Virus record (IMG/VR): IMGVR_UViG_3300049847_000717
Location: 1-26,138 of that record
Source of the DNA: a virus
DNA: 26,138 nt
Reading direction: 5' to 3' (one strand)
The notes beneath the pieces are model-generated. The model was not told the DNA's origin and did not search any database. It saw nothing but the letters and a program-made list of their open reading frames with translations. Made by a program: the position numbers and the translations under genes. Each line of letters starts with the position of its first letter. The first letter of the stretch is position 1. Below are positions 12,235-26,138 of this stretch, piece after piece.

Positions 12235-12284
12235 GCGAGAACGGGCGCAAATGTCCAAAACCGAATTTTTGGATAAATTACGAA

Positions 12285-12392
12285 ATGAAATTTCAAGGCA
12301 ATTTTAATAAATCAACCCGCGCAGACATCGCTTGCTTTATCGGCGCGATTCTGTTCGGGATTCTGGCGGAGATTTTAGCGAGGTTTTTATGA
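12285..12392 (+). CDS. Mini-membrane protein, copy 1 of a paralogous pair
   Basis: Thirty-five residues: a short basic lead (MKFQGNFNKSTRAD), one hydrophobic helix (IACFIGAILFGILAEIL) and the end ARFL. The same pattern occurs in the 36-residue product at 13100: R-[AT]-D-[IV]-A-C-F, then a helix, then L-[AT]-R-F-L at the stop. That conservation supports both as real genes although each is short and the SD here is weak. The stop overlaps the next ATG (ATGA at 12389). An 18-codon frame at 12251 overlaps in a different frame and is less convincing. Function is unknown; a holin-like, toxin-like or membrane-signal role is possible. Confidence 0.6.
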   Translation: MKFQGNFNKSTRADIACFIGAILFGILAEILARFL

Positions 12393-12628
12393 AAGAAGAA
12401 ATAGACGACATCATTCAAGAAATAAAAAAGAAACGAAAAGTTGTCAGTTCGTCGGACAATTATTCTGAAACCGAATGGCAAGCGATTGATTCATACAATC
12501 TCGGATTGACCGAAGCGATTGAAATTATCGAACGAAGAAATGCTAAAGATGATAAAGGTTGTCAATTTGATGGCTTTTATCAATCGGTTCTCAGCGAGCC
12601 GGACGAAGATTTTATGATGGGGCTTTAG
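12389..12628 (+). CDS. Small unknown helical protein
   Basis: Seventy-nine residues beginning with a charged helix (MKEEIDDIIQEIKKKRK), then SETEWQAIDSYNLGLTEAIEIIERR and an acidic end (SEPDEDFMMGL). The start at 12389 is chosen because it overlaps the stop of the mini-membrane gene (ATGA). The frame is open further upstream, but that part would run through the mini-gene. The pattern is that of a soluble helical protein. No family is recognised. Confidence 0.6.
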   Translation: MKEEIDDIIQEIKKKRKVVSSSDNYSETEWQAIDSYNLGLTEAIEIIERRNAKDDKGCQFDGFYQSVLSEPDEDFMMGL

Positions 12629-12631
12629 ATT

Positions 12632-12850
12632 ATGGCATCAACAACAAAAGCAAACTTGGAAGCGACTTACGGAGTGCCGGTTTATGTCCGTTGGCACCTT
12701 GTTCCGACCGACCTTCATCCGCGTAGTTGGTATGCCGATAAAGGTGTTAAAATTCCTAAATCAGCAAAACCCGATGCGGTCAAAGGTGGTGGTCAAAAGA
12801 TGGGAAAATCCCGAATAACATTTTTGTTTCGGGAATCAAAATGGTTATGA
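12632..12850 (+). CDS. Small unknown basic protein
   Basis: Seventy-two residues, basic and rich in Lys, Trp and Gly, with the segment YVRWHLVPTDLHPRSWYADKG and a C-terminal KSRITFLFRESKWL. It starts three bases after the previous stop, and its own stop overlaps the next ATG (ATGA at 12847). No membrane helix or known motif is visible. It belongs to the same co-transcribed block, and its function is unknown. Confidence 0.55.
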   Translation: MASTTKANLEATYGVPVYVRWHLVPTDLHPRSWYADKGVKIPKSAKPDAVKGGGQKMGKSRITFLFRESKWL

Positions 12851-12861
12851 AGATTAAGGAA
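12843..12861 (+). repeat. 19-bp direct repeat, copy 1, at a gene start
   Basis: GGTTATGAAGATTAAGGAA covers the start codon and first codons of the coiled-coil gene. The identical sequence recurs at 13096-13114 over the next start. The two genes then diverge, so this is a shared initiation segment only. Confidence 0.85.
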
Positions 12862-13095
12862 ATAGATAAAATAATTGCTGAACGTGACAAATGGAAACGC
12901 AGAGCAAAACTGTTTCAGGAAGCATATCGAGACGCAGATTTTCGCGCTCTTGCTTTAGAAATTCAAAAAATGCAATTGGAAGCACTGGGCACAGATAAAG
13001 TTACAGCAATGCAAAATAAACATTTACTTAAAAAACTAATATCAGTATGCGTAGAACGCAACGAATTAGCCGCTAGGCTGAAAAAGTATGAGTAA
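12847..13095 (+). CDS. Small coiled-coil protein
   Basis: Eighty-two residues, almost entirely helical and charged (KIIAERDKWKRRAKLFQEAY, later ERNELAARLKKYE), consistent with a coiled coil. The start at 12847 (ATGA overlap) is preferred to the in-frame ATG at 12841. The first codons lie in a 19-base sequence that is repeated exactly at the start of the gene at 13100. Function is unknown. Confidence 0.6.
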   Translation: MKIKEIDKIIAERDKWKRRAKLFQEAYRDADFRALALEIQKMQLEALGTDKVTAMQNKHLLKKLISVCVERNELAARLKKYE

Positions 13096-13114
13096 GGTTA
13101 TGAAGATTAAGGAA
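13096..13114 (+). repeat. 19-bp direct repeat, copy 2, at a gene start
   Basis: This is an exact copy of 12843-12861, again placing ATGAAGATTAAG at a gene start, 253 bases from the first copy. It suggests a local duplication or recombination between neighbouring small genes. Confidence 0.85.
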
Positions 13115-13210
13115 TTTATCAAGGTCTGCCCTTCCCGAACGGACGTTGCGTGCTTTAGCGCGGCGGTTGGGCTGGCAATTTTAGTTTGGATCTTGACGAG
13201 GTTTTTATAA
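13100..13210 (+). CDS. Mini-membrane protein, copy 2 of a paralogous pair
   Basis: Thirty-six residues: MKIKEFIKVCPSRTD, a hydrophobic helix (VACFSAAVGLAILVWIL) and the end TRFL. It matches the product at 12285 in R-T/A-D, V/I-A-C-F and the final RFL, and both genes end in the same DNA word CGAGGTTTTTAT. The first 15 bases are shared with the coiled-coil gene start at 12847, so the gene looks like a mosaic of two neighbours. It starts five bases after the previous stop. Function is unknown. Confidence 0.6.
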   Translation: MKIKEFIKVCPSRTDVACFSAAVGLAILVWILTRFL

Positions 13211-13215
13211 GCATA

Positions 13216-13407
13216 ATGGCAAAACTTGAATGTATAAAATGCAAAGAATATATCTATATTCCGAGAGCAGAACGCAACAAGGACGAGGAAATAGAATATA
13301 AATCATTCTGTTCTACGCATCAAGATCTTCCGTGTTATGTATGTTGGAAGTATCTCACAATAGAAGAAACAGATAAAATATTGGATGAAGAAATTTTAGA
13401 ATATTAA
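13216..13407 (+). CDS. Small zinc-ribbon protein
   Basis: Sixty-three residues with a four-cysteine layout: C-x2-C near the start (CIKCKEY), then FCSTHQ and CYVCW, the second C-x2-C. This would bind one zinc ion in a ribbon fold, with a possible extra Cys/His ligand. The C-terminus is acidic (IEETDKILDEEILEY). The ATG at 13216 gives the compact domain; the same frame is open back to 13186 but without an SD. It could bind nucleic acid or protein. No named family is assigned. Confidence 0.6.
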   Translation: MAKLECIKCKEYIYIPRAERNKDEEIEYKSFCSTHQDLPCYVCWKYLTIEETDKILDEEILEY

Positions 13408-13409
13408 TT

Positions 13410-13757
13410 ATGGCTATTGATATAGAAGGTCTAATAACTTATGAGGAATTTGACAATGAAAAAGGGAAATTCGTTAAAAAATTTCCACAACAAAAAGTTG
13501 AAATTATGAAAAACAAACTTGAATTAGAATCAATAATGATTGAGGGCATATTACCGATCTCGCAAATCTTTGCCCGCATCGGCGAGAAACTTTACCCGGT
13601 AACAGACGTTGAAAAAGCGGTCGGCGGCGGCAATTTGATCTTTACGGTCAATTACAAGCCGGGCAGACCTTTCAAATATGCTTCGGATAACGAACGCCGG
13701 GCGGCAAAACGAGAGTCTTGGAAAAAGGCGAATGCGCGGCGGAAAAAAGTAAAATAG
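13410..13757 (+). CDS. Small unknown protein with basic tail
   Basis: A 115-residue protein with an acidic and hydrophobic first two-thirds (IEGLITYEEFDNEKG, later YPVTDVEKAVGGGNLIFTV) and a strongly basic end (KPGRPFKYASDNERRAAKR, then KKANARRKKVK) that could contact nucleic acid. It starts two bases after the zinc-ribbon stop. No domain is recognised. The last ~70 residues have the GGC/GCG-rich codon style of the structural genes, unlike the A+T-rich first part. Confidence 0.6.
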   Translation: MAIDIEGLITYEEFDNEKGKFVKKFPQQKVEIMKNKLELESIMIEGILPISQIFARIGEKLYPVTDVEKAVGGGNLIFTVNYKPGRPFKYASDNERRAAKRESWKKANARRKKVK

Positions 13758-13820
13758 GGCAAACTTACCGAAACCGCGACGGGCAAACAATAGCGGTAAA
13801 ATAAAATTGAGGTAAAAACT

Positions 13821-14114
13821 ATGGAAAACGAATATAAAAAGCTATTTTCTATTGATGAAATTAGTAAAGAAATAGCGAGCGCTATTGAGGCACATCAAAA
13901 CGGGCAGGAAATTGATTGGGGCAAGGCTTACAATCAATGGACGGACGAAAATGGAAATCATACCCTAAAAAAGGGTGTGATTTATTTTGATAACTCCCTT
14001 ACAGGAGAAATTATTGATCTCATTAAAGAAGGTGAAGTTGTTGATGTCGCCAAATTGGCGCAGAAAAAACTGGACACAAGGCTTTCCAACTATTCTAAAA
14101 CCATTAGATTATAA
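13821..14114 (+). CDS. Small unknown acidic protein, last gene before a terminator
   Basis: Ninety-seven residues, helical and acidic (SIDEISKEIASAIEAHQNG, later EIIDLIKEGEVVDVAKLAQ). GAGGTAAAAACT gives a reasonable SD before the ATG. A strong hairpin terminator begins 26 bases after its stop, so it closes the transcription unit that starts near 11737. No family is recognised. Confidence 0.65.
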   Translation: MENEYKKLFSIDEISKEIASAIEAHQNGQEIDWGKAYNQWTDENGNHTLKKGVIYFDNSLTGEIIDLIKEGEVVDVAKLAQKKLDTRLSNYSKTIRL

Positions 14115-14139
14115 AGCCACAAATTCTCAAATAATTTCA

Positions 14140-14174
14140 AAAAGCCTCAGAGTAACATCTGAGGCTTTTCTTTT
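14140..14174 (+). terminator. Intrinsic terminator, probably bidirectional
   Basis: A perfect 12-bp stem AAAAGCCTCAGA/TCTGAGGCTTTT with a 6-base loop (14152-14157), followed by CTTTT. The A-run on the left gives the mirror signal on the other strand. It ends the small-gene block. Confidence 0.85.
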
Positions 14175-14211
14175 GTACTGGAAGCGTTAAAGCGCGAATT
14201 GTTAAAAATAA

Positions 14212-14481
14212 ATGAAATACGAAATCACATCAAAACTCGAAACTGTGCCCGGACATGGGTTGAAAGAAATTGAATATAAAGGCGTAAAACATTATATTCT
14301 CAAGACCGATTTCGGCTATTTTATCGAGTCAAGATTAATTCCGACGACTATGAGTTTTTCGGAAATTCAAGAATTGAAAAATAAAATCAAATATGATTTT
14401 GAGGTTGAAAAATTTATTTCTCTTAATGATATTAGCAGAATGGTTTTTATCGTATTAAAAGATAAAATTAATGATGATTAA
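14212..14481 (+). CDS. Small unknown protein between terminator and promoter
   Basis: Eighty-nine residues with a beta-like first half (KYEITSKLETVPGHGLKEIE, then HYILKTDFGYFIESRLIP) and a helical second half. It lies alone between the terminator at 14140 and the predicted promoter at 14491, with no SD and no obvious promoter of its own. It may be read from leak-through or be leaderless. The gene is A+T-rich. No family is recognised. Confidence 0.5.
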   Translation: MKYEITSKLETVPGHGLKEIEYKGVKHYILKTDFGYFIESRLIPTTMSFSEIQELKNKIKYDFEVEKFISLNDISRMVFIVLKDKINDD

Positions 14482-14490
14482 ACTATTTAA

Positions 14491-14519
14491 TTGACAACCC
14501 GCTTAAAATAAACTATTTT
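14491..14519 (+). promoter_or_regulatory. Predicted sigma70-type promoter before the head operon
   Basis: A perfect TTGACA at 14491-14496, an ideal 17-base spacer, and TATTTT at 14514-14519. The start of transcription would fall near 14525, exactly where the first arm of the closing stem of the structured RNA begins. It is one of the two best promoter matches in the window. Confidence 0.65.
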
Positions 14520-14522
14520 TAA

Positions 14523-14634
14523 GTTGAAAATCCAGTTGCGCTTTGCCCGAATTAAAGGCGCAAAACAAAGGCGACGACCATCGCTTAAGAAAAGCTGAAA
14601 GGCAATTCTTAAGCGATGGTTTTTTATTTTCAAC
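14523..14634 (+). ncRNA. Candidate structured RNA (three-stem) upstream of the portal gene
   Basis: Three helices can be drawn by eye. The closing stem pairs GTTGAAAAT (14523-14531) with ATTTTCAAC (14626-14634). The first inner hairpin pairs TTGCGC and TTT (14536-14544) with AAA and GCGCAA (14554-14563), with one bulged G and a 9-base loop. The second inner hairpin is a perfect 15-bp stem (14577-14591 with 14606-14620) and a 14-base loop, followed by a T-run. A predicted promoter starts transcription at its 5' end. It could be a stand-alone small RNA or an attenuating leader of the portal operon. It matches no RNA family known to me. Confidence 0.5.
14577..14630 (+). terminator. Intrinsic terminator or attenuator before the portal gene
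   Basis: A perfect 15-bp stem (ACCATCGCTTAAGAA with its complement at 14606-14620) followed by six T, A and four T. This is the strongest terminator-like hairpin in the window, yet it ends only ten bases before the portal ATG at 14640, so head-gene transcription must read through it or be controlled by it. Confidence 0.75.
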
Positions 14635-14639
14635 CTAAA

Positions 14640-16019
14640 ATGGCGCGAACCGCGAAAAAAATCACACCCGACTATCAGGACGAATCGGTTTCGACCGGGC
14701 GGATAATGTTCACTTCGCAATCTTTGCCGCAAAATCCGCGCGATGAAAACTTTCTAAAGCTCGATCTAAAATCGCTCGAATGGATGCGGGCAGACCCGGA
14801 AACACACGCCGCGATTGAATTTTTGCTTGACGCGATGCTGTCAGACGGAATTGAAACCGTCGGCGCGGTCTTTGAATCAGACCCGAATTTTGCCGAAGCG
14901 GAAGAATACGCCCGCTTTATTCGCTGCCAGTTCCACGAAACTTGCAAAACATTCAATCGTTCTTACAAAGAATTACTGCGCGGCGCGTTCACGTTCGGGC
15001 ATAAAGTCGGCGAAATTGTTTGCCGACTTCAAACCGAAGGCGAGGACGCCGGGCGGCTGGTTTTAGATCGCATCAAACCAAAACCGAACCGTTCGACCGC
15101 TTTTGTCGTGGATGAATTTTTCAACGTCCTCGGTCTCGTCGGCGTCCGGCGCGGGCAAACCGCCATCACGACCGGGCAGATCGCGCCCGAAAACGTCATT
15201 CCGACGGAAAAGTTTCTGATTCCGCGTTTTGAAGAAAAAGACGCCGATCCGCGCGGTGTGCCGCAAATTCGCGCCGCCTTTGATTCTGTCTGCGATAAAT
15301 CGGAAACGCGCCAGCAATTCAAGATCTGGCGCAAAAAATGTTCAATCCGTTCATTTATCGCAATGGCTGGCGAAAACGCCAAACCGATTCAAATCAAAAA
15401 TACCGACGATACGATCAAACTTGATTCAAACGGCGTGCCGGTCACGAAAACGCCGCTCAAAGCGATCTCGGAAACTCTCTCAAATATGCAAAACGATACG
15501 GTTGCTGCCTTCAATCACGGCACGACGATCGAGCCACTTGAATCGGACGGCACGGGCGAACAGTTCGAGCGCAGTTATAAAATAAATAATCAGGAAATCC
15601 GCAAGGCTATTTTGTTGCAATCCGGCGCGACAGGCGAAGCCGACAAGGGCGGTCTCGGCAAGGCGGGCAAAGAAGTTGACGAACGCGTATTGAATCGCCG
15701 CGTCAATTCATTCCGGCGCGACCGCGAAAAGGAACTTTATCAACTGGCGCGGACGTTGATTGCGCTGAATTTCGGCGCGGATAAAGCCTATTTAACGCCG
15801 TCAATCACTCTGGGCGATGCTGAAAAATCGGACTTTTCAGCACTTTTGGCGGCTTACGGTTCGGTCGGTTACGCGCTCGACAGCTCGCAATTCCCTGAAA
15901 TTGACACCGATCTCGGATTACCGAAACGCGACGCGCAAAACACGGCGGAAAATTTAGATCAAGGACAAAATGCCGCCGCCGCCAATCAGCAAACCGATCA
16001 AAATCAGGGGGCGACATAA
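14640..16019 (+). CDS. Portal protein (DUF935 / Mu gp29-like)
   Basis: A 459-residue protein. The opening MARTAKKITPDYQDE and the segment DPETHAAIEFLLDAMLSDGI resemble the start of Mu gp29-type portal proteins. Later parts include LLRGAFTFGHKVGEIV, the Pro/Lys-rich DRIKPKPN, and QSGATGEADKGGLGKAGKEV before a helical region, as expected for a portal wing, stem and crown. It forms the ring at one capsid vertex through which DNA passes. The ATG at 14640 has no SD; an ATG at 14616 lies inside the terminator stem and is rejected, and a later ATG at 14706 has GGGCGGA upstream and remains possible. The stop overlaps the next start (TAATG). It opens the head operon. Confidence 0.8.
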   Translation: MARTAKKITPDYQDESVSTGRIMFTSQSLPQNPRDENFLKLDLKSLEWMRADPETHAAIEFLLDAMLSDGIETVGAVFESDPNFAEAEEYARFIRCQFHETCKTFNRSYKELLRGAFTFGHKVGEIVCRLQTEGEDAGRLVLDRIKPKPNRSTAFVVDEFFNVLGLVGVRRGQTAITTGQIAPENVIPTEKFLIPRFEEKDADPRGVPQIRAAFDSVCDKSETRQQFKIWRKKCSIRSFIAMAGENAKPIQIKNTDDTIKLDSNGVPVTKTPLKAISETLSNMQNDTVAAFNHGTTIEPLESDGTGEQFERSYKINNQEIRKAILLQSGATGEADKGGLGKAGKEVDERVLNRRVNSFRRDREKELYQLARTLIALNFGADKAYLTPSITLGDAEKSDFSALLAAYGSVGYALDSSQFPEIDTDLGLPKRDAQNTAENLDQGQNAAAANQQTDQNQGAT

Positions 16020-17485
16020 TGAGCAGAGTTTTAGGATTTATCACATCTTCGATTTGGGCAATGCGCCGCCAAGAATTTGATACGATGACTTTGGTTGCCT
16101 TGCGTCAAACCGAAACTTTGGAAAAAATCGCGGCGGAAATGGACAAGCCTTTGCCGGAGACAATGATGACGCGGCGCGGTGAACGCCTTCAAAATACGCG
16201 ATATGTCGAAATCCGCGACTCGGTTGCCGTGATTGATGTCAATGGTCGGCTTTCAAAACGAATGGGATTTTTTGCGGAAATCTGCGAAGGCGGCACGTCA
16301 ACCGAAATCTTGCTCAAAGATTTTCAAACCGTTCTCGATAATCCGGCAGTCAAATCCATAGTTTTCAATATTGACAGCCCGGGCGGAGAAGCCTTCGGCA
16401 TCAATGAATTTGCGAATCATATTTTTAATGCGCGTGGCAAAAAACCGATGACGGCTTATGTCGGCGGTCTTGGTTGTTCGGGCGCGTATTGGATCGCGTC
16501 GGCGTGCGATGAAGTAGTTTGCGACAAATCCGCCTTTCTTGGTTCGATCGGCGTCGTTTCGGTTGCGATTGATGATACGCAAGCCTATAAAATGCTCGGA
16601 TTTGATAAGCGGGTCGTAACAAGTTCAAATGCGCCGAAAAAAAGACTTGACCTAAACACCGACGAAGGAATGGCGGAATTTCAGGCGGAACTTGACGCGA
16701 TGGAAAATGTTTTTATCTCATCCGTCGCACGAAACCGCAAAGTCAAACGCGAACAGGTCATCAATGATTTTAATCAAGGCGGCGTGCTGGTCGGCGCGGA
16801 TGCCGTTAAAGCGAAAATGGCGGATCGCGTTGGAAGTTTGGAACAGGTAATCCGCGAACAGGTCAGAGGAAATAAAAATCCGGCGAACGCAAAAACCGCC
16901 GAACACAAAGGAGAAATCAATATGTCATTCAAAGATAAATTTAGGGAATTAGCGGCGGCGGCAGGTTTTACAGTGCAGGAAACTGCGGCGGAAACGGTCG
17001 AAGAAACGCTTGAGACTTCGGAAATGTCGGACGCGGAAACCGTCAGATTGAAAGCCGAAGTTCAAGCGGCAAACAGTCGCGCTGAGCGTGCCGAAGCGGA
17101 AAAAGCTGCATTGCTCAAAGCGCAAGCGGCGGCAAAGGAAACGGCGATCACGGAAAAAGCGCGTGCCTATGTTTCAAAGGAACTGGCGGAAAGCCGTCTG
17201 CTTCCGGCGGAAAAAGAATCTTTCGAGGCAAGTTATTTACAAGCCTTAAAGGACGATGAAGCCGCGCCTTTGCCGGTTGGCTCGCGCGCCGCTTTGCTTG
17301 AAACATCGCAAGCGAAACGGACGCCGCATCTTTTTGCTTCGGAACAGATCGCGCCCGATGCGACTGCCCGCGTTTTGCACGGCGATCAGAGCGCAAGCGC
17401 CGAAGATCGCGCCGACGAACTTTTGCGACAAACGCCGCTCGGTCGGTCGGCACTAAAAATTGTCAAGGACAACGCCGCGAAATAA
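16019..17485 (+). CDS. S49-family prohead protease with C-terminal scaffold
   Basis: A 488-residue protein. Residues ~60-280 form a ClpP/crotonase-type S49 peptidase: VFNIDSPGGEAFG gives the oxyanion loop, S154 in GCSGAYWIAS is the nucleophile, and K207 or K208 lies 53-54 residues later, as in lambda gpC and bacterial SppA where the catalytic pair is Ser and Lys about 52 apart. Residues 302-488 are helical, Ala/Glu-rich and scaffold-like. An internal SD and ATG at 16922 produce that part alone. The protease matures the prohead and removes the scaffold. A good SD (CAGGGGG) precedes the ATG, which overlaps the portal stop. Confidence 0.85.
   Translation: MSRVLGFITSSIWAMRRQEFDTMTLVALRQTETLEKIAAEMDKPLPETMMTRRGERLQNTRYVEIRDSVAVIDVNGRLSKRMGFFAEICEGGTSTEILLKDFQTVLDNPAVKSIVFNIDSPGGEAFGINEFANHIFNARGKKPMTAYVGGLGCSGAYWIASACDEVVCDKSAFLGSIGVVSVAIDDTQAYKMLGFDKRVVTSSNAPKKRLDLNTDEGMAEFQAELDAMENVFISSVARNRKVKREQVINDFNQGGVLVGADAVKAKMADRVGSLEQVIREQVRGNKNPANAKTAEHKGEINMSFKDKFRELAAAAGFTVQETAAETVEETLETSEMSDAETVRLKAEVQAANSRAERAEAEKAALLKAQAAAKETAITEKARAYVSKELAESRLLPAEKESFEASYLQALKDDEAAPLPVGSRAALLETSQAKRTPHLFASEQIAPDATARVLHGDQSASAEDRADELLRQTPLGRSALKIVKDNAAK
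16922..17485 (+). CDS. Nested scaffold protein from an internal start
   Basis: The ATG at 16922 is in frame with the protease gene (codon 302) and has AAAGGAG at 16907-16913, eight bases upstream, one of the best ribosome sites in the window. The 187-residue product starts MSFKDKFRELAAAAG and is rich in Ala, Glu and Lys with a long coiled coil (AEVQAANSRAERAEAEKAAL). This is the layout of lambda C and Nu3, where the scaffold is the C-terminal part of the protease read from its own start. It would guide capsid assembly and be degraded later. Confidence 0.75.
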   Translation: MSFKDKFRELAAAAGFTVQETAAETVEETLETSEMSDAETVRLKAEVQAANSRAERAEAEKAALLKAQAAAKETAITEKARAYVSKELAESRLLPAEKESFEASYLQALKDDEAAPLPVGSRAALLETSQAKRTPHLFASEQIAPDATARVLHGDQSASAEDRADELLRQTPLGRSALKIVKDNAAK

Positions 17486-17519
17486 ACGGCAATTAATTTA
17501 ACAAGAAGGAGAGTATTTT

Positions 17520-17921
17520 ATGAGTTTAGTAACACAAAACTATACCGGAACAAAATTACAGCCGTTTATGGATCCGGAAGAAGCCTTGGTGGATTCCGTT
17601 CCATTCGGCAACAGTCTGACGGTCGCGCAAGGCACGGTTGTTGCGGTTAAAACGGCGGACGGCAAATGGTATGCTTATGCGAACGGCAATGCCGATGGCA
17701 CGGAAGTCGCCCGCGGAATTGCCGTCTATGCTTTTACGACTGACGGCTCGGGCAAGGTAACGATTGCTTCGGATAAGTCGGTCGTTTATGACGGCGCGCC
17801 TGTTTATTTGGCGGGAACGTTTCGGACCACGGAACTAACCGGACTCGACGCGCCGGGCGTCGTTGATTTAGGCAGAATTGTCGAAGGACAGCTCGCCGAT
17901 GGAGTTTTGCGCGTCACCTAA
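17520..17921 (+). CDS. Head decoration protein (lambda gpD-like)
   Basis: A 133-residue protein with a beta-rich pattern (SLTVAQGTVVAVKTADGKWY, then GIAVYAFTTDGSG, then GAPVYLAGTF) that fits the lambda gpD decoration family, whose trimers sit on the capsid three-fold axes and stabilise it. The order protease/scaffold, decoration, major capsid is the lambda C-Nu3-D-E order. A strong AAGGAG precedes the ATG. No odd features. Confidence 0.8.
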   Translation: MSLVTQNYTGTKLQPFMDPEEALVDSVPFGNSLTVAQGTVVAVKTADGKWYAYANGNADGTEVARGIAVYAFTTDGSGKVTIASDKSVVYDGAPVYLAGTFRTTELTGLDAPGVVDLGRIVEGQLADGVLRVT

Positions 17922-17952
17922 AGCGAGCGCGATTGATTAAAAGGAGAACATT

Positions 17953-18966
17953 ATGCCAAATTTTATTTATCCAACAAACGAAGATTTACAACTGATCGCG
18001 CAAACAAAGATCCACGCGCTCGCAATGGACGACCCGATTTTCGAGCATTTCCCGACCGTTAATGTGGATAGCCACGTTCTATCGTGGGAACAGCGCGATT
18101 CGTATCGCGGACTGGCGGCGGTTCGCGGTCTTAACGGTCAACCGAAGCGCGTCAACGCGGTCGGCGGCAACAAATTTACGATCGAACCCGGTATTTACGG
18201 CGAGTATATGACGATTGACGAAGCGGAATTGACAACGCGGCGGCAATGGGGAAGTTATAATACGCCGATCAATATCACGGATTTGGTTCTCGAAAAGCAA
18301 GATCAACTGCTTTCGCGGCGCATTGATCTGATCCGTTCGATCCTTTGGACGCTTGTTACGACCGGGACTTTTACGGTTGCCAACGAATTGACGCAAACGC
18401 AATATTCGGGAACATATTCGATTCAAACCTTTACGGCGGGCGTTTCTTGGGGAACACCGGCGACGGCGACGCCCTTGGCGAATTTCCGCGCCGTTCAACT
18501 GCTTTCGCGCGGTTTTTCGGTCAGCTTCGGCGCAGGCGCGCGAGCTTATATGAACCGCGTGACGTTCAACAAAATGATCTCAAATACCAATTCGGCGGAC
18601 ATTGCCGGACGGCGGACGTCAGGACTCAACACGGTTTTGAATCTTGGCGAAGTCAACGCGGTTCTTGCCGGCGAAGATTTGCCGATGATCGTCGTCCACG
18701 ATGGCGGCTATTTGAACTCGGCGGGAACTTTTGTTCCGCTTATTGCCGACGATAAAGCGGTCGTCATCGGTCAACGCCCGGCAAATGCGCCGGTCGGCGA
18801 TTATGCAATGACGCGCAACGCAAATAACCCGAACTTGGAACCGGGTCCGTATATGCGCGTCGTTGACGACGAAGACGATGTTCCGCGTCTGATTCAAGTC
18901 CACGACGGACACAACGGCGGTCCGCGCATCTATTTCCCGTCGGCGGTCGTTAAAATGAGTGTGTGA
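17953..18966 (+). CDS. Major capsid protein (lambda gpE-like)
   Basis: A 337-residue protein, the size of lambda gpE (341). The opening with FPTVNVDSHVLSWEQRDS, the segment YGEYMTIDEAELTTRRQWG, and the ends YMRVVDDEDDVPRLIQVHDG and YFPSAVVKMSV follow the Phage_cap_E family pattern. It forms the icosahedral shell with the HK97 fold. AAAGGAG precedes the ATG. The next gene is an HNH endonuclease that separates it from the head-tail genes, so the insertion lies directly after the most highly expressed head gene. Confidence 0.85.
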   Translation: MPNFIYPTNEDLQLIAQTKIHALAMDDPIFEHFPTVNVDSHVLSWEQRDSYRGLAAVRGLNGQPKRVNAVGGNKFTIEPGIYGEYMTIDEAELTTRRQWGSYNTPINITDLVLEKQDQLLSRRIDLIRSILWTLVTTGTFTVANELTQTQYSGTYSIQTFTAGVSWGTPATATPLANFRAVQLLSRGFSVSFGAGARAYMNRVTFNKMISNTNSADIAGRRTSGLNTVLNLGEVNAVLAGEDLPMIVVHDGGYLNSAGTFVPLIADDKAVVIGQRPANAPVGDYAMTRNANNPNLEPGPYMRVVDDEDDVPRLIQVHDGHNGGPRIYFPSAVVKMSV

Positions 18967-18971
18967 GGACA

Positions 18972-19024
18972 ATAGATGTAGTATAATTATTGTAAGTAAA
19001 ATTACAATAAGGAGCTACATCTAT
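18972..19024 (+). promoter_or_regulatory. Hairpin over the SD and start codon of the HNH gene, with an internal -10 box
   Basis: The outer stem is a perfect 10 bp, ATAGATGTAG (18972-18981) with CTACATCTAT (19015-19024), and takes in the first two bases of the start codon. The inner stem is 9 bp, TTATTGTAA (18987-18995) with TTACAATAA (19002-19010). The SD AAGGAG (19009-19014) is split between inner stem and internal loop. TATAAT at 18982-18987 fills the opposite side of the loop. No good -35 is seen. Confidence 0.7.
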
Positions 19025-19706
19025 GAAGCAATGTATCCAGTGCGGCGAAAACAAGTTCTTTGAACAATTCTATGTTAAGCGGAAATTGCCGGACGGCACT
19101 AACCAATATCAATCATATTGCAAAGATTGTTATGCGGAACGGCAAAAAAATCCTGAGACAAAGAAATCTCCTTTTAAGAAGGTGGTAATGACGGCGGAAG
19201 AGCGTCGGGAAAGGCGAAATGAGCAAGCCCGACTTTACAACCAGAAACCTGAGCGCAAAAAGTATATGAGTAAATATGCTAAAGAAAATGCGGATAAGGA
19301 AAAGGAAAAGGCAGTCCGATATTACCAAAATCATAAAAACGAGATTATTGCTAAAACAAGGCTTTACCGGAAATTAGAACCGGAAAAAGCGCGTTTAGCG
19401 GTAAAAAAATGGCGCAAAGCAAACGAGGATTATCTTGTTCCGCAAAACGCAAAACGCCGCGCAAAAGTGTTAAGCGTGATAGGTGTGTTTACTGCTAAAG
19501 AATGGCAAGAACAAAAAGAACGGCAAAATTTTATTTGCCTGATGTGCAAGCGAAAAGAACCGGAAATTAAATTAACTGCTGACCACATCATACCGCTTAC
19601 ATTAGGCGGAACAAATACGATTGACAACATTCAAGGGCTATGTAAATCCTGCAATAGCAGAAAACACAATAAAACACTTGATTTGAGAAATGAATTGATT
19701 AAATAG
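19023..19706 (+). CDS. Free-standing HNH endonuclease with N-terminal zinc ribbon
   Basis: A 227-residue, very basic protein. Residues 4-36 hold two C-x2-C pairs (C4/C7 and C33/C36) forming a zinc ribbon. Residues 50-165 are Lys/Arg/Glu-rich and helical. Residues 172-215 form an HNH domain with C172/C175, D187-H188 (TADHIIPLTLGG), N202 (TIDNIQGLC), C207/C210 and H215 (NSRKHN), the zinc-bound McrA/HNH type. It is probably a mobile homing nuclease that cuts phages lacking it; cutting near the capsid gene is inferred. It sits between the capsid gene and the next head gene, with a hairpin over its ribosome site. It may also assist packaging, as HNH proteins do in some phages. Confidence 0.85.
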   Translation: MKQCIQCGENKFFEQFYVKRKLPDGTNQYQSYCKDCYAERQKNPETKKSPFKKVVMTAEERRERRNEQARLYNQKPERKKYMSKYAKENADKEKEKAVRYYQNHKNEIIAKTRLYRKLEPEKARLAVKKWRKANEDYLVPQNAKRRAKVLSVIGVFTAKEWQEQKERQNFICLMCKRKEPEIKLTADHIIPLTLGGTNTIDNIQGLCKSCNSRKHNKTLDLRNELIK

Positions 19707-19714
19707 GAAGAAAT

Positions 19715-19951
19715 ATGGCAAAGAAATTTTTACTAAAATCACACATCATCGGCGCGGACGGCGCGTTGCTTACGCCGGAAACGGTGGTCGAATCGTCCGC
19801 GCTTGGCGACGGCGAAACGATCAAGCGTTATCTCGATCTGGAAGCAATCGCGCCCGAAAGCGAAAAACAAACGACCGGCGAAGTTTTGGCGGAAGTCGAA
19901 GCGGCGGCGGCAGTTTTACCGGCGGAAGAACCGGCGAAGAAACCTAAATAA
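19715..19951 (+). CDS. Small head-module protein
   Basis: Seventy-eight residues: a basic and hydrophobic start (MAKKFLLKSHIIGADG), a middle with GDGETIKRYLDLEAI, and an Ala/Glu/Pro/Lys-rich tail. AGGAAG gives an SD. Its stop overlaps the next start (TAATG). It occupies the place of lambda FI between the capsid and connector genes, but the sequence does not let me call it a homologue. Confidence 0.6.
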   Translation: MAKKFLLKSHIIGADGALLTPETVVESSALGDGETIKRYLDLEAIAPESEKQTTGEVLAEVEAAAAVLPAEEPAKKPK

Positions 19952-20451
19952 TGAACTGGATTTCAGTTTTCAATTTCAAGGCTGATTTTGCTATTGCCCG
20001 CGCGGCGTCGGACGCTCAGGCGACAATGGCAATCGAAGCCGCTGAAGATGAACTTATTACGATCATCGGACAAGCGGCGGTTACCGATACGCTTCTTGCA
20101 ACGCCGACGGATCCGGCGCGGGCGGCGCGGGTCGTTCGGGCGCATAAGTTTTTAGCGGCGTCAATTCATCTGCTTAATGTCCGCAACGTCAAAAAAGAGC
20201 AGGACGCATCAAGTCCGGCAATGGCGGGCAAAATGATCCAAAATGAATATTGGACGCCGGATGAAATAATGAAAATGCGCGAGAATTGGCGAAATCTGGC
20301 ACTTAAAGCTATCTCGCCTTATTTAATCGTTGACGACCCGGACGATGATCTTGAATTTGAGCCGGCATTTGAAACCGGCGTTTTGACAGTGGCGGCGGCA
20401 GATTGCGCTTTGCAGACCGGCAAGCCTGATTATTGTAATGATTGCGCTTAA
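19951..20451 (+). CDS. Probable head-tail connector protein
   Basis: A 166-residue protein, mostly helical (ARAASDAQATMAIEAAEDEL, then DPARAARVVRAHKFLAASIH), with PDEIMKMRENWRNLALKAIS and a Cys-containing end. The length, helical pattern and position after the capsid and before an HK97 gp10-like gene fit connector proteins that cap the portal. No signature residue is decisive. The start overlaps the previous stop, and the last 14 bases overlap the next gene in another frame. Confidence 0.55.
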   Translation: MNWISVFNFKADFAIARAASDAQATMAIEAAEDELITIIGQAAVTDTLLATPTDPARAARVVRAHKFLAASIHLLNVRNVKKEQDASSPAMAGKMIQNEYWTPDEIMKMRENWRNLALKAISPYLIVDDPDDDLEFEPAFETGVLTVAAADCALQTGKPDYCNDCA

Positions 20452-20884
20452 TGTTCATATCCGCGCCTTTGATTTCGGATTGATCGAAAAAGATATTGAC
20501 GTAATTTCCGAGCAATTAGCCGATCAAATCCAAATCGAAGCGCAAAAAATTCTGGAAGTGCCGCCGGCGCGACACGGCAGACTTTACCGGCGCGGGGCGA
20601 TCAAGGGCAGATTGACAAAAAAAGGTTTGCTTTCCGGTTTGAAGCAGTCAGGTAACCGATTGATTATCGGTCAAAATATTCACCGCGCATCGGCTCCGGG
20701 CGAAGCACCGGCGAAGGATACGGGGCGTTTGCAAAGCAATATCACCGTCCGCAAATCCGGGCGCGGGCGTTATCAGGTTCGTTTCGGTGCGCCGTATGCG
20801 GGTATTTTGGAATTTGAATTAAACCGCCCGTTCATTTTACCCGCGATTGACGCGGCGGTTAAAGCGGTATTTGAAAAAAGATGA
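20438..20884 (+). CDS. HK97 gp10-like / lambda Z-like tail completion protein
   Basis: A 148-residue basic protein. The marker is SAPGEAPAKDTGRLQSNITV, the common 'pGepPa.dTGrL..si' motif of HK97 gp10-like proteins, followed by a beta hairpin (YQVRFGAPYAGILEFELNR) and the RPFILPAIDAAV end typical of the family. It joins tail to head. It overlaps the connector gene by 14 bases and the next gene by ATGA. The ATG at 20438 has only a weak SD, consistent with translational coupling. Confidence 0.75.
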   Translation: MIALNVHIRAFDFGLIEKDIDVISEQLADQIQIEAQKILEVPPARHGRLYRRGAIKGRLTKKGLLSGLKQSGNRLIIGQNIHRASAPGEAPAKDTGRLQSNITVRKSGRGRYQVRFGAPYAGILEFELNRPFILPAIDAAVKAVFEKR

Positions 20885-21330
20885 TTTCACTCGACGCTCT
20901 GTATAATTTCATCGAATCGCTGATTGACGCCGCGGCGCCGCAAACGCCACTTTACGGCGCAATCGCCTTTCGGAATCTTCGCGGATCGGTTGACGAAACC
21001 CGCAAGATCGTTCGTTGCGAATGCTGGCAGGGACGACGCGCGAAAACTACTGACCCGGAATGTCAGGAAGTCGAGGTTAAATTCATTGTCGAGTTTTATG
21101 TGACGCCCGACCCGCCGGAACCGACCGCCTCGGAATTGCAGCAACTTGATGCGGCGCGGGATTTGAGTTTTGAAATGATGAACGTATTTTTTGAAGCATT
21201 GACGGACGGCGACGGTCCGACATTAAACAAAGCGGTTGATGTTGCCTACGGCGATGAATGGGAAAACGGCGAGGCGAGTTTTGGAACACTTTTGCGGGGC
21301 GCGACTTATTTTTACGGAAATATAAATTAA
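20881..21330 (+). CDS. Probable tail terminator protein (lambda U position)
   Basis: A 149-residue acidic protein with an N-terminal helix (ISLDALYNFIESLIDAA), a beta core (RKIVRCECWQG, then VEVKFIVEFYVTP) and a helical stretch (ELQQLDAARDLSFEMMNVFF). The size, fold pattern and place between the gp10-like protein and the tail tube fit tail terminators, which stop tube growth. No specific motif proves this. It starts at an ATGA overlap. Confidence 0.6.
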   Translation: MISLDALYNFIESLIDAAAPQTPLYGAIAFRNLRGSVDETRKIVRCECWQGRRAKTTDPECQEVEVKFIVEFYVTPDPPEPTASELQQLDAARDLSFEMMNVFFEALTDGDGPTLNKAVDVAYGDEWENGEASFGTLLRGATYFYGNIN

Positions 21331-21340
21331 TGAGGTGATT

Positions 21341-21553
21341 ATGCTGATTAAATTTAAGGATGATTTTACGGAATTTTCAGACAGCGGGCGCGTTTTTCTA
21401 AAAGCGGACGAGCCTTTTGAAGTTGAAACTGCCGCCGCCGCCGAACTTCTCGCGCTCGAAGTAACGACATTTTCCGGCGCGGGAAAAGACCGCGTGGCGC
21501 GGCAAACAACGATTTTTGAAACGGCCAAAGCGGATAAAAAAGAGGTGAAATAA
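21341..21553 (+). CDS. Small protein between tail terminator and tube genes
   Basis: Seventy residues, acidic in the middle (DEPFEVETAAAAELLALE) with a Lys-rich end. The ATG at 21341 is chosen with GAGGTG upstream; the in-frame GTG at 21335 is part of that SD. The last codons carry GAGGTG, the SD of the tube gene, so the two are coupled. Many phages have an unnamed small gene here. Function is unknown. Confidence 0.6.
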   Translation: MLIKFKDDFTEFSDSGRVFLKADEPFEVETAAAAELLALEVTTFSGAGKDRVARQTTIFETAKADKKEVK

Positions 21554-21554
21554 T

Positions 21555-22604
21555 ATGGCACTTTTAACAACGAGCTCAATGCTGACTTGGTTTTCGCGCT
21601 TGGCGGAGACCGCTTACGGAACAAAGGCTTTGGCGGCGGCGGATTATCGCCGTCTTGGTGAACTTAACCGCACGCTTTTCAATATCAAACCGACATTTGA
21701 AGCGGATATGGAAAACGCCGGATCGGATGAAGCGGCGCAAGCCTATATTTCGACCAATATTTTTCAGAACACGAACTTTCAGCAATTCTTTTCATTTCAG
21801 GATATTGGCTATTGGCTGCAAATGATCTTTGGCGCGTATAACAAATCCGGCGCCGGCGCGCCTTTTACGCATACCTTTACGCCGCTGAATAAAACCACAT
21901 CGCGCCAGCACCCCGTCCGCACGTTCGGGCAACGGCGCGGCACGGATATTTTTATTTATACTTCGATCGGCGTGCAGGAACTCTCGATCGAAAAAGATTC
22001 GGTCGGACGCCTTAAAGTTTCGATCACGCTGGACGGAATGGGCGTCGTCAATCTTAATCCGGCAAGCTACGCCGCGCCGGCGGTTGTTACCGATAGAATT
22101 TACGGATTTAACAACCAGGCGGCGCAAACCATCAACGACACGATTGCGACGGTCAATTACGCTTATCAATGCGAAGTTGAAAGTTGGAAATGGACTTTTA
22201 CAAACGAACGTATTGCCGATAGTTTCCGCGATTGTTCGGCAGAATTTACCGCCGGAAGTCCGAAGGCGGGAATTGTCCGGGCGGAAAATCTGACATCGCG
22301 CTATAACTGGAAATGGTCGGCGCGCGTCCGTTATGATTCGGCAAAGAACCCGGAAAACTTTTTGCGCGCCGGGAACCTCGTCACGCTGACAACGGCAATA
22401 ACTTCAAGTCAACTGATGACGGCGACGCCTTACTCGTTGACTATTTCCGACACTCAGGCACAAATCCTTTCAGCCGATCCGTCCGCCAAAGAAGGCGATT
22501 TTATTTTTTACGATATTGAAGGCGAATGCCGCGCCTCGAAATCTACCGGACTGCTTGGCGCGCAAGCCGTTCTCGTCAATGATGTGGCAAGTTATATTGT
22601 CTAA
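21555..22604 (+). CDS. Major tail tube protein
   Basis: A 349-residue protein with long beta strands and aromatic residues (FTHTFTPLN, DIFIYTSIGVQELSIEKDSVG, LKVSITLDGMGVV, YNWKWSARVRYDS). The N-terminal segment (WFSRLAETAYGTK) resembles tail tube proteins that start with 'ke.tyGt'. At 349 residues it is longer than lambda gpV (246) and probably carries an extra C-terminal or inserted domain. It stacks as rings to form the tail tube. Its SD lies within the end of the previous gene. A large hairpin follows its stop. Confidence 0.75.
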   Translation: MALLTTSSMLTWFSRLAETAYGTKALAAADYRRLGELNRTLFNIKPTFEADMENAGSDEAAQAYISTNIFQNTNFQQFFSFQDIGYWLQMIFGAYNKSGAGAPFTHTFTPLNKTTSRQHPVRTFGQRRGTDIFIYTSIGVQELSIEKDSVGRLKVSITLDGMGVVNLNPASYAAPAVVTDRIYGFNNQAAQTINDTIATVNYAYQCEVESWKWTFTNERIADSFRDCSAEFTAGSPKAGIVRAENLTSRYNWKWSARVRYDSAKNPENFLRAGNLVTLTTAITSSQLMTATPYSLTISDTQAQILSADPSAKEGDFIFYDIEGECRASKSTGLLGAQAVLVNDVASYIV

Positions 22605-22638
22605 AGATTTTCGCCCGTCGGCAGTTTCGGCGCGAAAA

Positions 22639-22730
22639 AAAGCGGGCGGGTTTTGCTTCTCAGTTTTTCCCGCCCCGCTTTGAATTTTGAAAATTGAGAA
22701 TACTAAATTTATAAAAAGGAAAACTGAGAA
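22639..22730 (+). promoter_or_regulatory. GC-rich hairpin whose loop is complementary to the next ribosome site
   Basis: The stem is AAAGCGGGCGGG (22639-22650) with CCCGCCCCGCTTT (22669-22681), with one bulged C and an 18-base loop. Loop bases TTCTCAGTTTT (22657-22667) are an exact complement of AAAACTGAGAA (22720-22730), which directly follows the AAGG of the chaperone gene's SD and precedes its ATG. On the + strand no T-run follows the stem, so it is not a normal forward terminator. On the - strand it would be one. Confidence 0.55.
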
Positions 22731-22731
22731 A

Positions 22732-23493
22732 ATGACCAAAAGAAAAGAAGTTGAAAAAGTCGAAACATTAGAGCATCTTTCGCTTGAACGCGTCGAGCAG
22801 ATCATTCCCGCCGTCAATGAATATGACGCGGACGCCGAGCAACTGATACCGCTTTCCATAACCAAAAATAAAAAATCATTCCGCGTTATTCATCGCCTTT
22901 TACCGCTTTCGGACGAGCGTTATTTCGCGCTTGAGCGGGCGCGCCGCGAAGTTCAAAAACGCCTCATCAAGCGCGGCGATCTCGGCGTTTTCAGTTTCGA
23001 TCCGAACGCCGAACTTTGGAACGATCTTGCTATTGAACGAATCGGCTATGCGCCGACGCCGGATTGGAAAGCGAAAACTTATTATTTGGATAAAACATCG
23101 GCAATCACGGCACTGCTTCACGCGCAAATAATTGACGAAACGGATGCGGACGATGCCGATGCGGACGAACTTCTCGGCGATGATGACTTTGAGGTTAACT
23201 TGCGCGTTCTTCAAAGCGGCGTTTTGATCGAAACGGCGCATTATTTCCGCGAAGAAACGAAAGCGGAAATGGACGAATTTCTTGCCATTATGTCGGAGAA
23301 ACCGAACCCGAACGCGCTTGCTTCGGCTACAAAACGAGAGGAACTTTCCGAACGCCTTTGCGCTCTTTATGACGCGATGGCAACCGGCTCCGAAGGCTAT
23401 GCGGGGCGCGTCCCGGCGTGGCATAAAGTTACGGCGGTTTCGACGCATCTTTCGCGTCAATTTGCCCGCTTGGGAAAGTCGTTGAGCGATTGA
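22732..23493 (+). CDS. Tail assembly chaperone (lambda G-like)
   Basis: A 253-residue acidic protein with helical segments (ERYFALERARREVQKRLIKRG, shortened; IDETDADDADADELLGDD; KREELSERLCALYDAM). It lies between the tail tube and tape measure genes, where lambda G is found, and ends with a GGGAAAG slippery site, which is the strongest evidence. It would bind the tape measure protein and recruit tube subunits. The ATG at 22732 has AAAAGG upstream at a rather long distance of 12 bases. The frame is open back to 22687, but only from a TTG without an SD. Confidence 0.8.
   Translation: MTKRKEVEKVETLEHLSLERVEQIIPAVNEYDADAEQLIPLSITKNKKSFRVIHRLLPLSDERYFALERARREVQKRLIKRGDLGVFSFDPNAELWNDLAIERIGYAPTPDWKAKTYYLDKTSAITALLHAQIIDETDADDADADELLGDDDFEVNLRVLQSGVLIETAHYFREETKAEMDEFLAIMSEKPNPNALASATKREELSERLCALYDAMATGSEGYAGRVPAWHKVTAVSTHLSRQFARLGKSLSD
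23472..23478 (+). promoter_or_regulatory. Programmed -1 frameshift site GGGAAAG
   Basis: The zero frame reads GGA AAG at 23473-23478, so the heptamer is G GGA AAG, the exact slippery sequence used by lambda between G and T. It is four codons before the zero-frame stop. Slipping by -1 enters an open frame of 142 codons. The frameshift is inferred from sequence, and its frequency is unknown. Confidence 0.8.
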
Positions 23494-23906
23494 CAAAAAG
23501 ATTGTTTCGTTTCGTTGCCATTGAATTTGGCGCAGAGGCGGCGGCGGCAGATGGCACAAGGCGAATTTGTCCCGGTGAAACGAATTGTTCGGATTTTGAA
23601 TCGGCGGCGGGCGCGAACCGATTGGCAAAAGAAAGAAATGCCTGTGCGGGATGCGAGCATTTCCCGACCAAGATCGCGCCCGAGAAAACCGCCGCCGCCG
23701 CCGTTTGGTTAGACCAGCGGGAATCGAATATAATCAGATTGTTTTGGGAAACCCGCGCCGGTTATCGCCCGGAAAAGTCGGAACTTTCCTCGGTTGAATA
23801 CATGGGTTTGGTATTCTTGGCGGAACAATGGAACCGCCGCGAAAGGATTTTGCAAATTGAGATTGCCGAACTTGCCAAGGCGATGTTGAAACGGCAGATA
23901 TTTTAA
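23478..23906 (+). CDS. T-like frameshift extension of the tail assembly chaperone
   Basis: This frame (142 residues after the slip) has no convincing start of its own: the first candidate is a TTG at 23490 overlapping the previous stop, with no SD. It is therefore best read as the C-terminal part of a 391-residue fusion made by the -1 shift at 23472. It contains four cysteines in two groups (CPGETNC and CAGCEHF), which suggests a metal-binding segment, then a helical end (EQWNRRERILQIEIAELAKA). In lambda the T part contacts the tube subunits while G coats the tape measure. The tape measure gene starts five bases after the stop. Confidence 0.75.
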   Translation, partial: VVERLTKRLFRFVAIEFGAEAAAADGTRRICPGETNCSDFESAAGANRLAKERNACAGCEHFPTKIAPEKTAAAAVWLDQRESNIIRLFWETRAGYRPEKSELSSVEYMGLVFLAEQWNRRERILQIEIAELAKAMLKRQIF

Positions 23907-23910
23907 GATT

Positions 23911-26138
23911 ATGGCAGACGGACGGACAGTAAAAGTTGTCGTGGATGTCGTCGCAACGAGCGCGGCAAAGGCGTCGGATACCGTCAAAAATGAAACTAAA
24001 AAACTTGCCGATGAAGTAAAGCGCATCAATCAGCAAACCGCCGAAGACGCCAAACGCAATCAAAAAGTCATCGAAGACGCGACCAAAGCGCGTCTTCACG
24101 AAGAACTTCAAGCCGAAAAACGATTGGAGCGTGACCGTAAAAAAATTGCGGCTGATTTTATTCAATCGGTCAAGCAAACGACGGATGAGGCAAGCGCGTA
24201 TTCAAAACAAGGCGCGTCGGCAATGAACGGTTTTCTCGGCGCGTTTGCCGGCGGATTTACCGGCGCGGCGGTTTTCGATGTTATTAAAAACGGGTTGTCT
24301 TCAATTATGAATCTTGCGACGGGCGCGGCGCGTTCGCTTTGGGATTTGCTTAAATCGGCTTCGGATTTCGGCTCGCAGATCAAAGATTTTCAGGACAAAA
24401 CCGGTCTGGCGGCGCAAACTATTTCAACCTTAAAATTTCAGGCGGCGCAAAGCGGCATCGCTTTTGACGCGCTTGCGACGCCGGTTCGCAAAATTACCGG
24501 ATTGCTTTATTCGGCGCAACAGGGTTCGGAAAAGGCATCGGACGCGCTTGCCAAATTCGGCATCTCGAAATTCGATACGGTTGACGAAGCTCTGACGAAA
24601 TCCATCAAAAAGATTTACGAAGGCAAAGACGCGACCGAACAACTCGGAATCGCAACCGAACTTTACGGCGCGAAGAATGCTCAAGTAATGGTTGCTGTCG
24701 CCAAAAACACCGAAGGAAATTTAGGCGGCGCAATCCAAAAAGCGAAAGAACTCGGCATCGTGCTTTCGCAAGAAGACGTTGACGCGGCGGACAAGTTCGG
24801 CGATACGATGGGTTTGCTCGGTCTTCAAGCGCAAAGTTTAGGCGCACGTTTTGCGCTACAACTTGCCCCGTCAATTACAAGTGCGATGGAGAAAATCTCG
24901 GATGTTCTCGCTAAAAATCAAGTTCAATTCGCTTTCTGGGGCGAAGTCGCTCGCGGCGCGTTCATCGGTCTGCAAATCGTTGCCGGTCAAGTCGTAACTG
25001 TGATTTCAGCCGTTTTCAATCGCATCAATGACGACATTACTTTGATGACCGGCGGTTTAGTGAATTTAAGCCGCATCGCGGGCGGCATTTACGGGCGGTT
25101 TGAAAAAGATTATCTAAATAACGGAACGGGTTCTGTAACAGCGGGCGCGACCATCGGCGGCGTCAATATAATGTCTAAAATGCCGACCGGCGCGATTGAC
25201 GATCTGACAGGTGGCGGCGGCGGTGGCGGCGGCAAAACGCCGCGCGTCAAAAAACCTTCGGGCGGCGTTTCGGACGAACTCAAAAACGCACTTTCAAAAG
25301 TGCCGGATAGTTTGAAAAATCAAATCATTGCCGCCGCCGCCGCTTACGGTATTCCCGAATCTCTCGCTTTGGCGCAAATCTTCGCCGAATCAAGTTTCAA
25401 AACCGGCGTTGTTAGTTCGCAAGGCGCAGTCGGTTTAACGCAAGGAGTGCCTGGCACGACCGGACAATCACGTTTCGGCGGTTTCTCTCCGTCGCAAATG
25501 AAAGACCCGAAAAATGCGCTGACATTTTGGGGCAAATATATGACTTATCTTTACGACCGTTATAAAGATTGGGATTTGGCGATTCTTGCCTATCATCAAG
25601 GCGAAACAACGGTTGACGCCTATGTTGCGGCAATTAAGGCGGGTAAGACCGGCGGCGGCATCATCGGACCTAAGGGCAAGGCATATTTAGCGCAAATTCG
25701 CAAAAATACAAGTGGTATTCAAGGTTTGGGTATTACTGATGACGAACTCGGTATTAAAAGTATTGAAACCATCAAAGATAAGTTTCTCGGATTTGAAAAC
25801 ATTCTCGAGCAAGTCGGCGCGACCGTTAAAGATACGCCATTACAATCCTTGGCAAAACTTCTCGATATGGATTCGGAAAGCGCGAAACGGTTGGCGGTAG
25901 CAGTCGGCACGACGGTTGAGAAATTAAAAGAAATGACGTTTTCAGCCGCCGCGCTCGAGCGTCTTAAATCAATAGTTATTCCCGAACGCGAAACCGCAGG
26001 GCGCGGCGCGGCAGATGAAAACAATCCGTTTGAAGGATTAAACCCGCCATCGGTGACGGTCGAGGGCAATTTCGAGGAAATTCCTGTTGTCAAATCGTGG
26101 AATAATTTCTTTGACGTCGTAAATTTCAAACTCAAGGA
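23911..26138 (+). CDS. Tape measure protein with lytic transglycosylase domain (3' end outside window)
   Basis: At least 742 residues, still open at the window end. Residues 1-95 are charged and helical (coiled coil). Residues ~105-150 contain hydrophobic Gly/Ala-rich helices (GFLGAFAGGFTGAAVF), and residues ~320-345 form another hydrophobic stretch. An eight-glycine linker at about residues 434-441 leads to a transglycosylase-like (SLT/goose lysozyme type) domain: IPESLALAQIFAESSF with E493 as the catalytic acid, then GAVGLTQ, and AYHQGETTVDAY in the place of the usual 'AYNaG'. It sets tail length and would open the cell wall during DNA entry. It follows the chaperone genes as in lambda G-T-H. 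Confidence 0.85.
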   Translation, partial: MADGRTVKVVVDVVATSAAKASDTVKNETKKLADEVKRINQQTAEDAKRNQKVIEDATKARLHEELQAEKRLERDRKKIAADFIQSVKQTTDEASAYSKQGASAMNGFLGAFAGGFTGAAVFDVIKNGLSSIMNLATGAARSLWDLLKSASDFGSQIKDFQDKTGLAAQTISTLKFQAAQSGIAFDALATPVRKITGLLYSAQQGSEKASDALAKFGISKFDTVDEALTKSIKKIYEGKDATEQLGIATELYGAKNAQVMVAVAKNTEGNLGGAIQKAKELGIVLSQEDVDAADKFGDTMGLLGLQAQSLGARFALQLAPSITSAMEKISDVLAKNQVQFAFWGEVARGAFIGLQIVAGQVVTVISAVFNRINDDITLMTGGLVNLSRIAGGIYGRFEKDYLNNGTGSVTAGATIGGVNIMSKMPTGAIDDLTGGGGGGGGKTPRVKKPSGGVSDELKNALSKVPDSLKNQIIAAAAAYGIPESLALAQIFAESSFKTGVVSSQGAVGLTQGVPGTTGQSRFGGFSPSQMKDPKNALTFWGKYMTYLYDRYKDWDLAILAYHQGETTVDAYVAAIKAGKTGGGIIGPKGKAYLAQIRKNTSGIQGLGITDDELGIKSIETIKDKFLGFENILEQVGATVKDTPLQSLAKLLDMDSESAKRLAVAVGTTVEKLKEMTFSAAALERLKSIVIPERETAGRGAADENNPFEGLNPPSVTVEGNFEEIPVVKSWNNFFDVVNFKLK

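Follow-up and report, generated by a model that had tools for sequence, protein, structure and literature searches.

In the switch that operates in phage T4, early and middle read-through transcripts are silenced and late ones are freed. Hairpins over the ribosome-binding site, with promoters so placed that the genes' own transcripts escape them, have been described for the nuclease genes I-TevI, I-TevII, I-TevIII (an HNH enzyme) and segB, and for mobE of Aeromonas phage Aeh1 (PMC2988022, PMC3014915). Reduction of translation by the RNA structure has been shown for the free-standing mobE of Aeh1 and implicated for segB (PMC3014915); the hairpin control of mobE is the work of Gibb and Edgell (2007, 2009), as cited in PMC2988022 and PMC3014915. 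The late-promoter switch of T4 gene e is also documented (PMC3014915). Hiding of phage homing-type nuclease genes by a hairpin, free-standing HNH genes included, is already known, and the locus described here most likely adds a further case. The initial annotation of this DNA had put forward the occurrence of such a hairpin with an HNH gene as a new, convergent form of control; as a novelty this does not stand, given the published precedent of Aeh1 mobE (PMC2988022, PMC3014915).

The window, that is, the whole stretch of 26,138 nucleotides that was analysed, is of viral origin (IMG/VR record IMGVR_UViG_3300049847_000717, positions 1 to 26,138). A two-stem mRNA hairpin lies between its capsid gene and an HNH gene, at the coordinates that had been assigned to it. 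The features of the locus are as follows.

17953-18966, plus strand: major capsid protein gene (Phage_cap_E, lambda gpE family; Pfam PF03864, E=4e-13; PHROG 29, major head protein), with its stop codon TGA at 18964-18966
18965-18981, plus strand: SD-like GAGGA (18965-18969) overlapping the capsid stop, then ATG-TAG (18976-18981), a putative start-stop mini-ORF inside the 5' outer arm (from the sequence)
18972-18981, plus strand: outer stem, 5' arm ATAGATGTAG (RNA fold, inverted-repeat arms, pair probabilities)
18982-18987, plus strand: TATAAT between the 5' arms, a possible but unsupported -10 element (from the sequence; found in 19% of shuffles)
18987-18995, plus strand: inner stem, 5' arm TTATTGTAA (RNA fold, inverted-repeat arms, pair probabilities)
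19002-19010, plus strand: inner stem, 3' arm TTACAATAA (RNA fold, inverted-repeat arms, pair probabilities)
19009-19014, plus strand: Shine-Dalgarno (SD) sequence AAGGAG of the HNH gene, paired at both ends, with GGA in the internal loop (sequence, pair probabilities)
19015-19024, plus strand: outer stem, 3' arm CTACATCTAT, which extends by two bases into the HNH start codon (RNA fold, arms, pair probabilities)
19023-19706, plus strand: free-standing HNH endonuclease gene, 227 aa, with a zinc-finger-like N-terminus and a C-terminal HNH domain (PF14279, HNH_5, E=1e-14; PF01844, E=3e-13)
19715-19951, plus strand: next gene of the structural operon, 78 aa, with its own SD AGGAAG at 19705-19710 overlapping the HNH stop (from the sequence)

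The stretch between the capsid and HNH genes is 56 nt long (18967-19022). Folding of the RNA from 18960 to 19040 gave a minimum free energy (MFE) of -22.9 kcal/mol (z -4.7), and none of 200 shuffles folded as well. The outer stem (18972-18981/19015-19024) is a perfect 10 bp, or 11 bp with a U-G pair between 18982 and 19014, and the inner stem (18987-18995/19002-19010) is a perfect 9 bp closed by a 6-nt loop; the two are stacked and separated by an asymmetric internal loop. Pair probabilities are about 1 at 18973-18982, 18987-18995, 19002-19010 and 19014-19024. The stems flank the SD, whose GGA (19011-19013) stays mostly unpaired inside the internal loop, and the AU of the start codon (19023) is paired at the end of the 3' outer arm. 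This start codon is secure, with an in-frame TAA at 19008 and Met1 invariant in the homologue alignment. Fold and pair probabilities confirm the earlier proposal of a 10-bp outer and a 9-bp inner stem that take up the start codon and part of the SD. A search of Rfam returned no match.

The protein behind the hairpin exceeds the curated cut-offs of HNH and HNH_5 and carries a homing-type nuclease domain, in which H188, N202 and N211 as well as C172, C175, C207 and C210 are conserved. The gene has a G+C content of 0.39 between flanking genes of 0.53 and 0.54, in surroundings of 0.50-0.54, and the intergenic stretch has 0.27; these low values fit an insertion. The capsid gene and the 78-aa gene are both intact beside it. 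From domain and context only, we infer that the HNH gene is a mobile (homing) element. The motif AGGA-N6-ATG occurs on both sides of it (18966-18978 and 19705-19717), each time overlapping the preceding stop, and the upstream one may be what remains of the start that the 78-aa gene originally had.

The strength of the start block was measured as the opening cost, i.e. the energy needed to unpair the initiation region from -15 to +3 of a start, and compared with 2000 shuffles of the intergenic stretch that preserve its dinucleotides. The HNH start costs 18.3 kcal/mol to open. The shuffles averaged 4.8 (sd 2.1) with a maximum of 17.0, and 0 of the 2000 reached 18.3. The hairpin is more than a product of chance. 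No other start in the window is blocked as strongly, except for a portal start at 14616 that was mis-called; the apparently stronger block there was rejected, because the site is an intrinsic terminator (stem 14577-14620 with a run of T) and the portal gene more likely starts at the in-frame ATG 14640. In a set of 81 starts of HNH-family genes and 237 control starts, drawn from related loci, the HNH start of the window had the highest shuffle-corrected z (6.3). The opening cost went down to 12.5 when the fold was started further into the capsid gene, from 18870.

Calculated by the same method, the opening costs of T4 starts are 14.5 for I-TevI, 13.0 for I-TevII, 15.6 for gene 49 and 17.3 for segB, and 0.9 and 3.2 for mobD and mobE of T4, for which, to our knowledge, no such hairpin has been described. 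I-TevIII was discarded as a yardstick, because the annotated T4 ORF is a remnant that lacks part of the gene, and its cost of 5.9 is uninformative. By these calculations, the predicted strength of the hairpin in the window matches that of known start-blocking hairpins. The window also shares with I-TevI, I-TevII, I-TevIII, segB and Aeh1 mobE a nuclease domain and a predicted sequestration of the start on read-through transcripts, and by prediction its hairpin works like theirs.

The likeness differs from one system to another. Like the window, Aeh1 mobE is a free-standing HNH gene in a phage operon with an RBS hairpin that reduces translation (in the window, by prediction), but it belongs to a T4-like phage, lies within nrdA and has a late promoter in its arrangement; we compare the two by description only. 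The I-TevI gene of the T4 td intron resembles the window in having a hairpin over both SD and AUG (14.5 vs 18.3 kcal/mol), which would be relieved by a promoter whose transcript lacked the 5' arm. However, it is intron-encoded, is of another nuclease family (GIY-YIG) and has a known late promoter in its 5' arm, whereas the window has a bare TATAAT between the arms. The T4 segB gene is a free-standing homing gene between other genes and has a similar opening cost, but it is of the GIY-YIG family, lies in the tRNA region and has a late promoter. The RBS hairpins of the T4 late genes e, soc and 49 impose the same block on read-through mRNA, although these genes are not mobile elements. The initial annotation had likened the arrangement to the established logic of I-TevI. 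The anatomical part of this analogy agrees with our results, but the gene in the window is inside a structural operon and the early/late logic of T4 therefore does not carry over; a hairpin on an HNH gene in this position would damp expression, not delay it.

We suggest that the hairpin is probably a cis-acting translational damper of a mobile, free-standing HNH gene that was inserted behind the capsid gene and ahead of the next head gene. In mRNA read through from the capsid gene, the hairpin would bury the start codon and cage the SD, such that few 30S subunits would start on the nuclease although this rides on probably one of the most abundant mRNAs of the phage. The 78-aa gene, which has its own free SD and an opening cost of only 3.1, would escape the block. 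Mostly there may be no relief at all, a low leaky expression being the point; after this we would rank the termination or re-initiation of ribosomes at the capsid end, and then an internal promoter. Transcripts begun at or after about 18990 are predicted to escape the hairpin. Its formation and repressive effect in vivo, as well as the way in which it is relieved, are inferences.

Some observations stand against a damper. The lower cost obtained with the longer fold is one. A terminating capsid ribosome, which reaches to about 18976, would lower the cost from 18 to about 11, and a heavily translated read-through mRNA may thus be less blocked than the fold alone suggests. The earlier claim that capsid transcripts translate the nuclease poorly is supported by computation as far as the burial of the start and of part of the SD is concerned, and it is this terminating ribosome that may weaken it. 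No comparable hairpin was found in 80 related HNH ORFs, some of which lie directly 3' of terminase or portal genes, and these relatives as a group had no excess of structure at their starts (p = 0.14). A search of viral contigs for the outer-stem pattern gave 50 matches, none of them followed by an HNH gene; these fall into groups of nearly identical copies of a small number of unrelated sequences and were dismissed as chance. The region ahead of another HNH gene (L068, 2850-2960) contains short hairpins and, as an impression only, group I intron-like motifs.

Other relatives bear on the region behind the capsid gene. We found no close relatives of the capsid protein, the portal protein or one downstream protein in viral contigs, nor of the HNH or capsid proteins in genome contigs, and therefore neither an empty site nor a comparison of covariation or conservation in the stems was available. 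Two loci with relatives of the protease (L054, 60%; L055, 51%) have different capsids, and a Microcystis phage (L056) has a capsid relative with 30% identity; these loci are too distant for the junction of the capsid and 78-aa genes to be aligned. None of the three has an HNH gene after the capsid gene, which speaks for a damper on an inserted gene. Stem-loops occur directly behind the capsid stop in all of them (L054, 9594-9664; L055, 9507-9600; L056, 3524-3572, the last resembling an intrinsic terminator), clear of the next start, which is open at a cost of 2.6-3.3. The stem-loops, however, count against the damper, as the hairpin in the window may in part serve a different role as an element that follows the capsid gene.

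An independent parallel, in favour of the damper, was found in a further virus, IMGVR_UViG_3300002097_000234 (L072), which has a start-blocking hairpin in the region 2310-2410. There, a major head protein gene (PHROG 14242, E=2e-18) is followed by a 20-bp hairpin over the next start, a 124-aa ORF and an HNH gene, whose protein is 49% identical to that of the window over the matched C-terminal stretch. The hairpin stretch has an MFE of -37.1 (z -8.8), and the start of the 124-aa ORF has an opening cost of 17.7 (z 5.4), the highest among the control starts. The G+C contents of the consecutive genes are 0.48, 0.35, 0.28 and 0.47, i.e. two low-GC genes, the second being the HNH relative, and then a return to an ordinary value. 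The two loci have in common a head gene, a start-blocking hairpin, and a low-GC ORF with a related HNH gene; they differ in that the hairpin of L072 covers the 124-aa ORF, not the HNH start, and is a single 20-bp stem of unrelated sequence. As one post hoc case, this suggests a tendency for cassettes located behind capsid genes to acquire a start block. We consider it unlikely, but worth stating, that HNH cassettes behind the capsid genes of unrelated phages repeatedly acquire a post-stop start-blocking hairpin as an insulator from the strongest operon of the phage; each 5' arm might then also contain a promoter for an independent, lower expression.

The hairpin could alternatively be one half of a T4-type switch, in which TATAAT is a working -10 element and the nuclease is translated from transcripts that begin at about 18994, devoid of the 5' arms, and not from those read through from the capsid gene. 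The hexamer is at 18982-18987, between the two 5' arms as had been noted earlier; it is perfect and in the right place, and the layout is that used by T4 I-TevI, segB and Aeh1 mobE (PMC2988022). A start at 18994 would leave RNA with no notable structure and drop the opening cost from 18.5 to 2.5, as expected from the proposed freeing of the start region. In L072, TTGAGC-N17-TATAAC (2327-2355) lies partly on the 5' arm, and for a transcript begun near 2362 the cost would be 6 instead of about 18, although this site has only 9 of 12 matches. However, the missing -35, already conceded when the idea was raised, is real: the best candidate matches 3/6 at a spacing of 15 nt and 2/6 at 17, with no spacing above 3/6. 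There is no extended -10 either (no TG one base ahead of the hexamer). TATAAT arose in 971 of 5000 shuffles (19%) of the 56-nt intergenic stretch, and is thus not more than expected by chance; it has 16 copies in the window on both strands. A scan for promoter-like sites did not pick out 18982-18987 and gave 17 sites in 12000-26138, against 16.4 expected. Since the gene is already inside the structural operon, no early/late switch is implied. The promoter idea is coherent but unproven, and with one chance-level hexamer we regard such a switch as unlikely. Somewhat less unlikely, in our opinion, is translational coupling. Ribosomes that finish the capsid gene, or that start anew at the GAGGA-N6-AUG-UAG mini-ORF (18965-18981), would mask the 5' arm and thereby expose the HNH start, and the output of nuclease would scale with translation of the capsid gene. 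Coupling through the unfolding of RNA is an accepted model (PMC12548453), and the capsid stop is 5 nt ahead of the outer stem. With the RNA blocked to 18976-18978 by a terminating ribosome the cost is 7-11, and it is 3.5 with the RNA blocked to 18990 by a ribosome on the AUG at 18976. Against this, the AUG-UAG, which is itself paired, simply complements the CUACAU of the 3' arm and could thus be fortuitous. Structure just 3' of the stop lowered coupling in one library screen (PMC12548453), and the hairpin of L072 begins 33 nt past the stop, beyond the reach of a terminating ribosome.

It is also conceivable, though we think it quite unlikely, that the structure is mainly a stem-loop that protects or processes the 3' end of the capsid mRNA, as a block to exonucleases or an RNase III site, and that it overlaps the HNH start only because of where the gene landed. 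Strong stem-loops after the capsid stop in L054, L055, L056 and L072 speak for this. However, the 3' arm ends exactly in the HNH start codon, whereas the next start is open in L054-L056, and a role as an intrinsic terminator was rejected because there is no U run on either strand. Finally, the 24-bp inner palindrome TTATTGTAA-N6-TTACAATAA might act as a DNA operator, either for a dimeric repressor or for the HNH nuclease. The palindrome is perfect and autorepression by I-TevI is a precedent (PMC2988022), but no second copy was present in the window at up to 3 mismatches, and an operator would leave the outer stem and its exact match to the start codon unexplained. An operator of a repressor with multiple sites was discarded on account of the single copy, and we consider an operator of any kind very unlikely.

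Elsewhere in the window, the region ahead of the portal gene (14491-14640) contains a promoter-like site, TTGACA-N17-TATTTT, a structured leader (z -6.3) and, just ahead of the gene, a strong intrinsic terminator with perfect 15-bp arms (14577-14591/14606-14620) and a T run; the portal gene probably starts at 14640 rather than 14616. A perfect 12-bp inverted repeat at 14140-14169 (AAAAGCCTCAGA/TCTGAGGCTTTT) has T-rich tails on both strands and might, in front of the structural genes, serve as a terminator in both directions.

If the fold between the capsid and HNH genes works as a translational damper, the translational hiding of mobile nucleases extends beyond the T4-like phages with their late-promoter system, and would also be found in a phage whose capsid is lambda-type and whose portal is Mu-type, in the middle of a structural operon. 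Simple reporters could then be used to test how costly a nuclease gene is within a strongly expressed operon, and how selection tames it.
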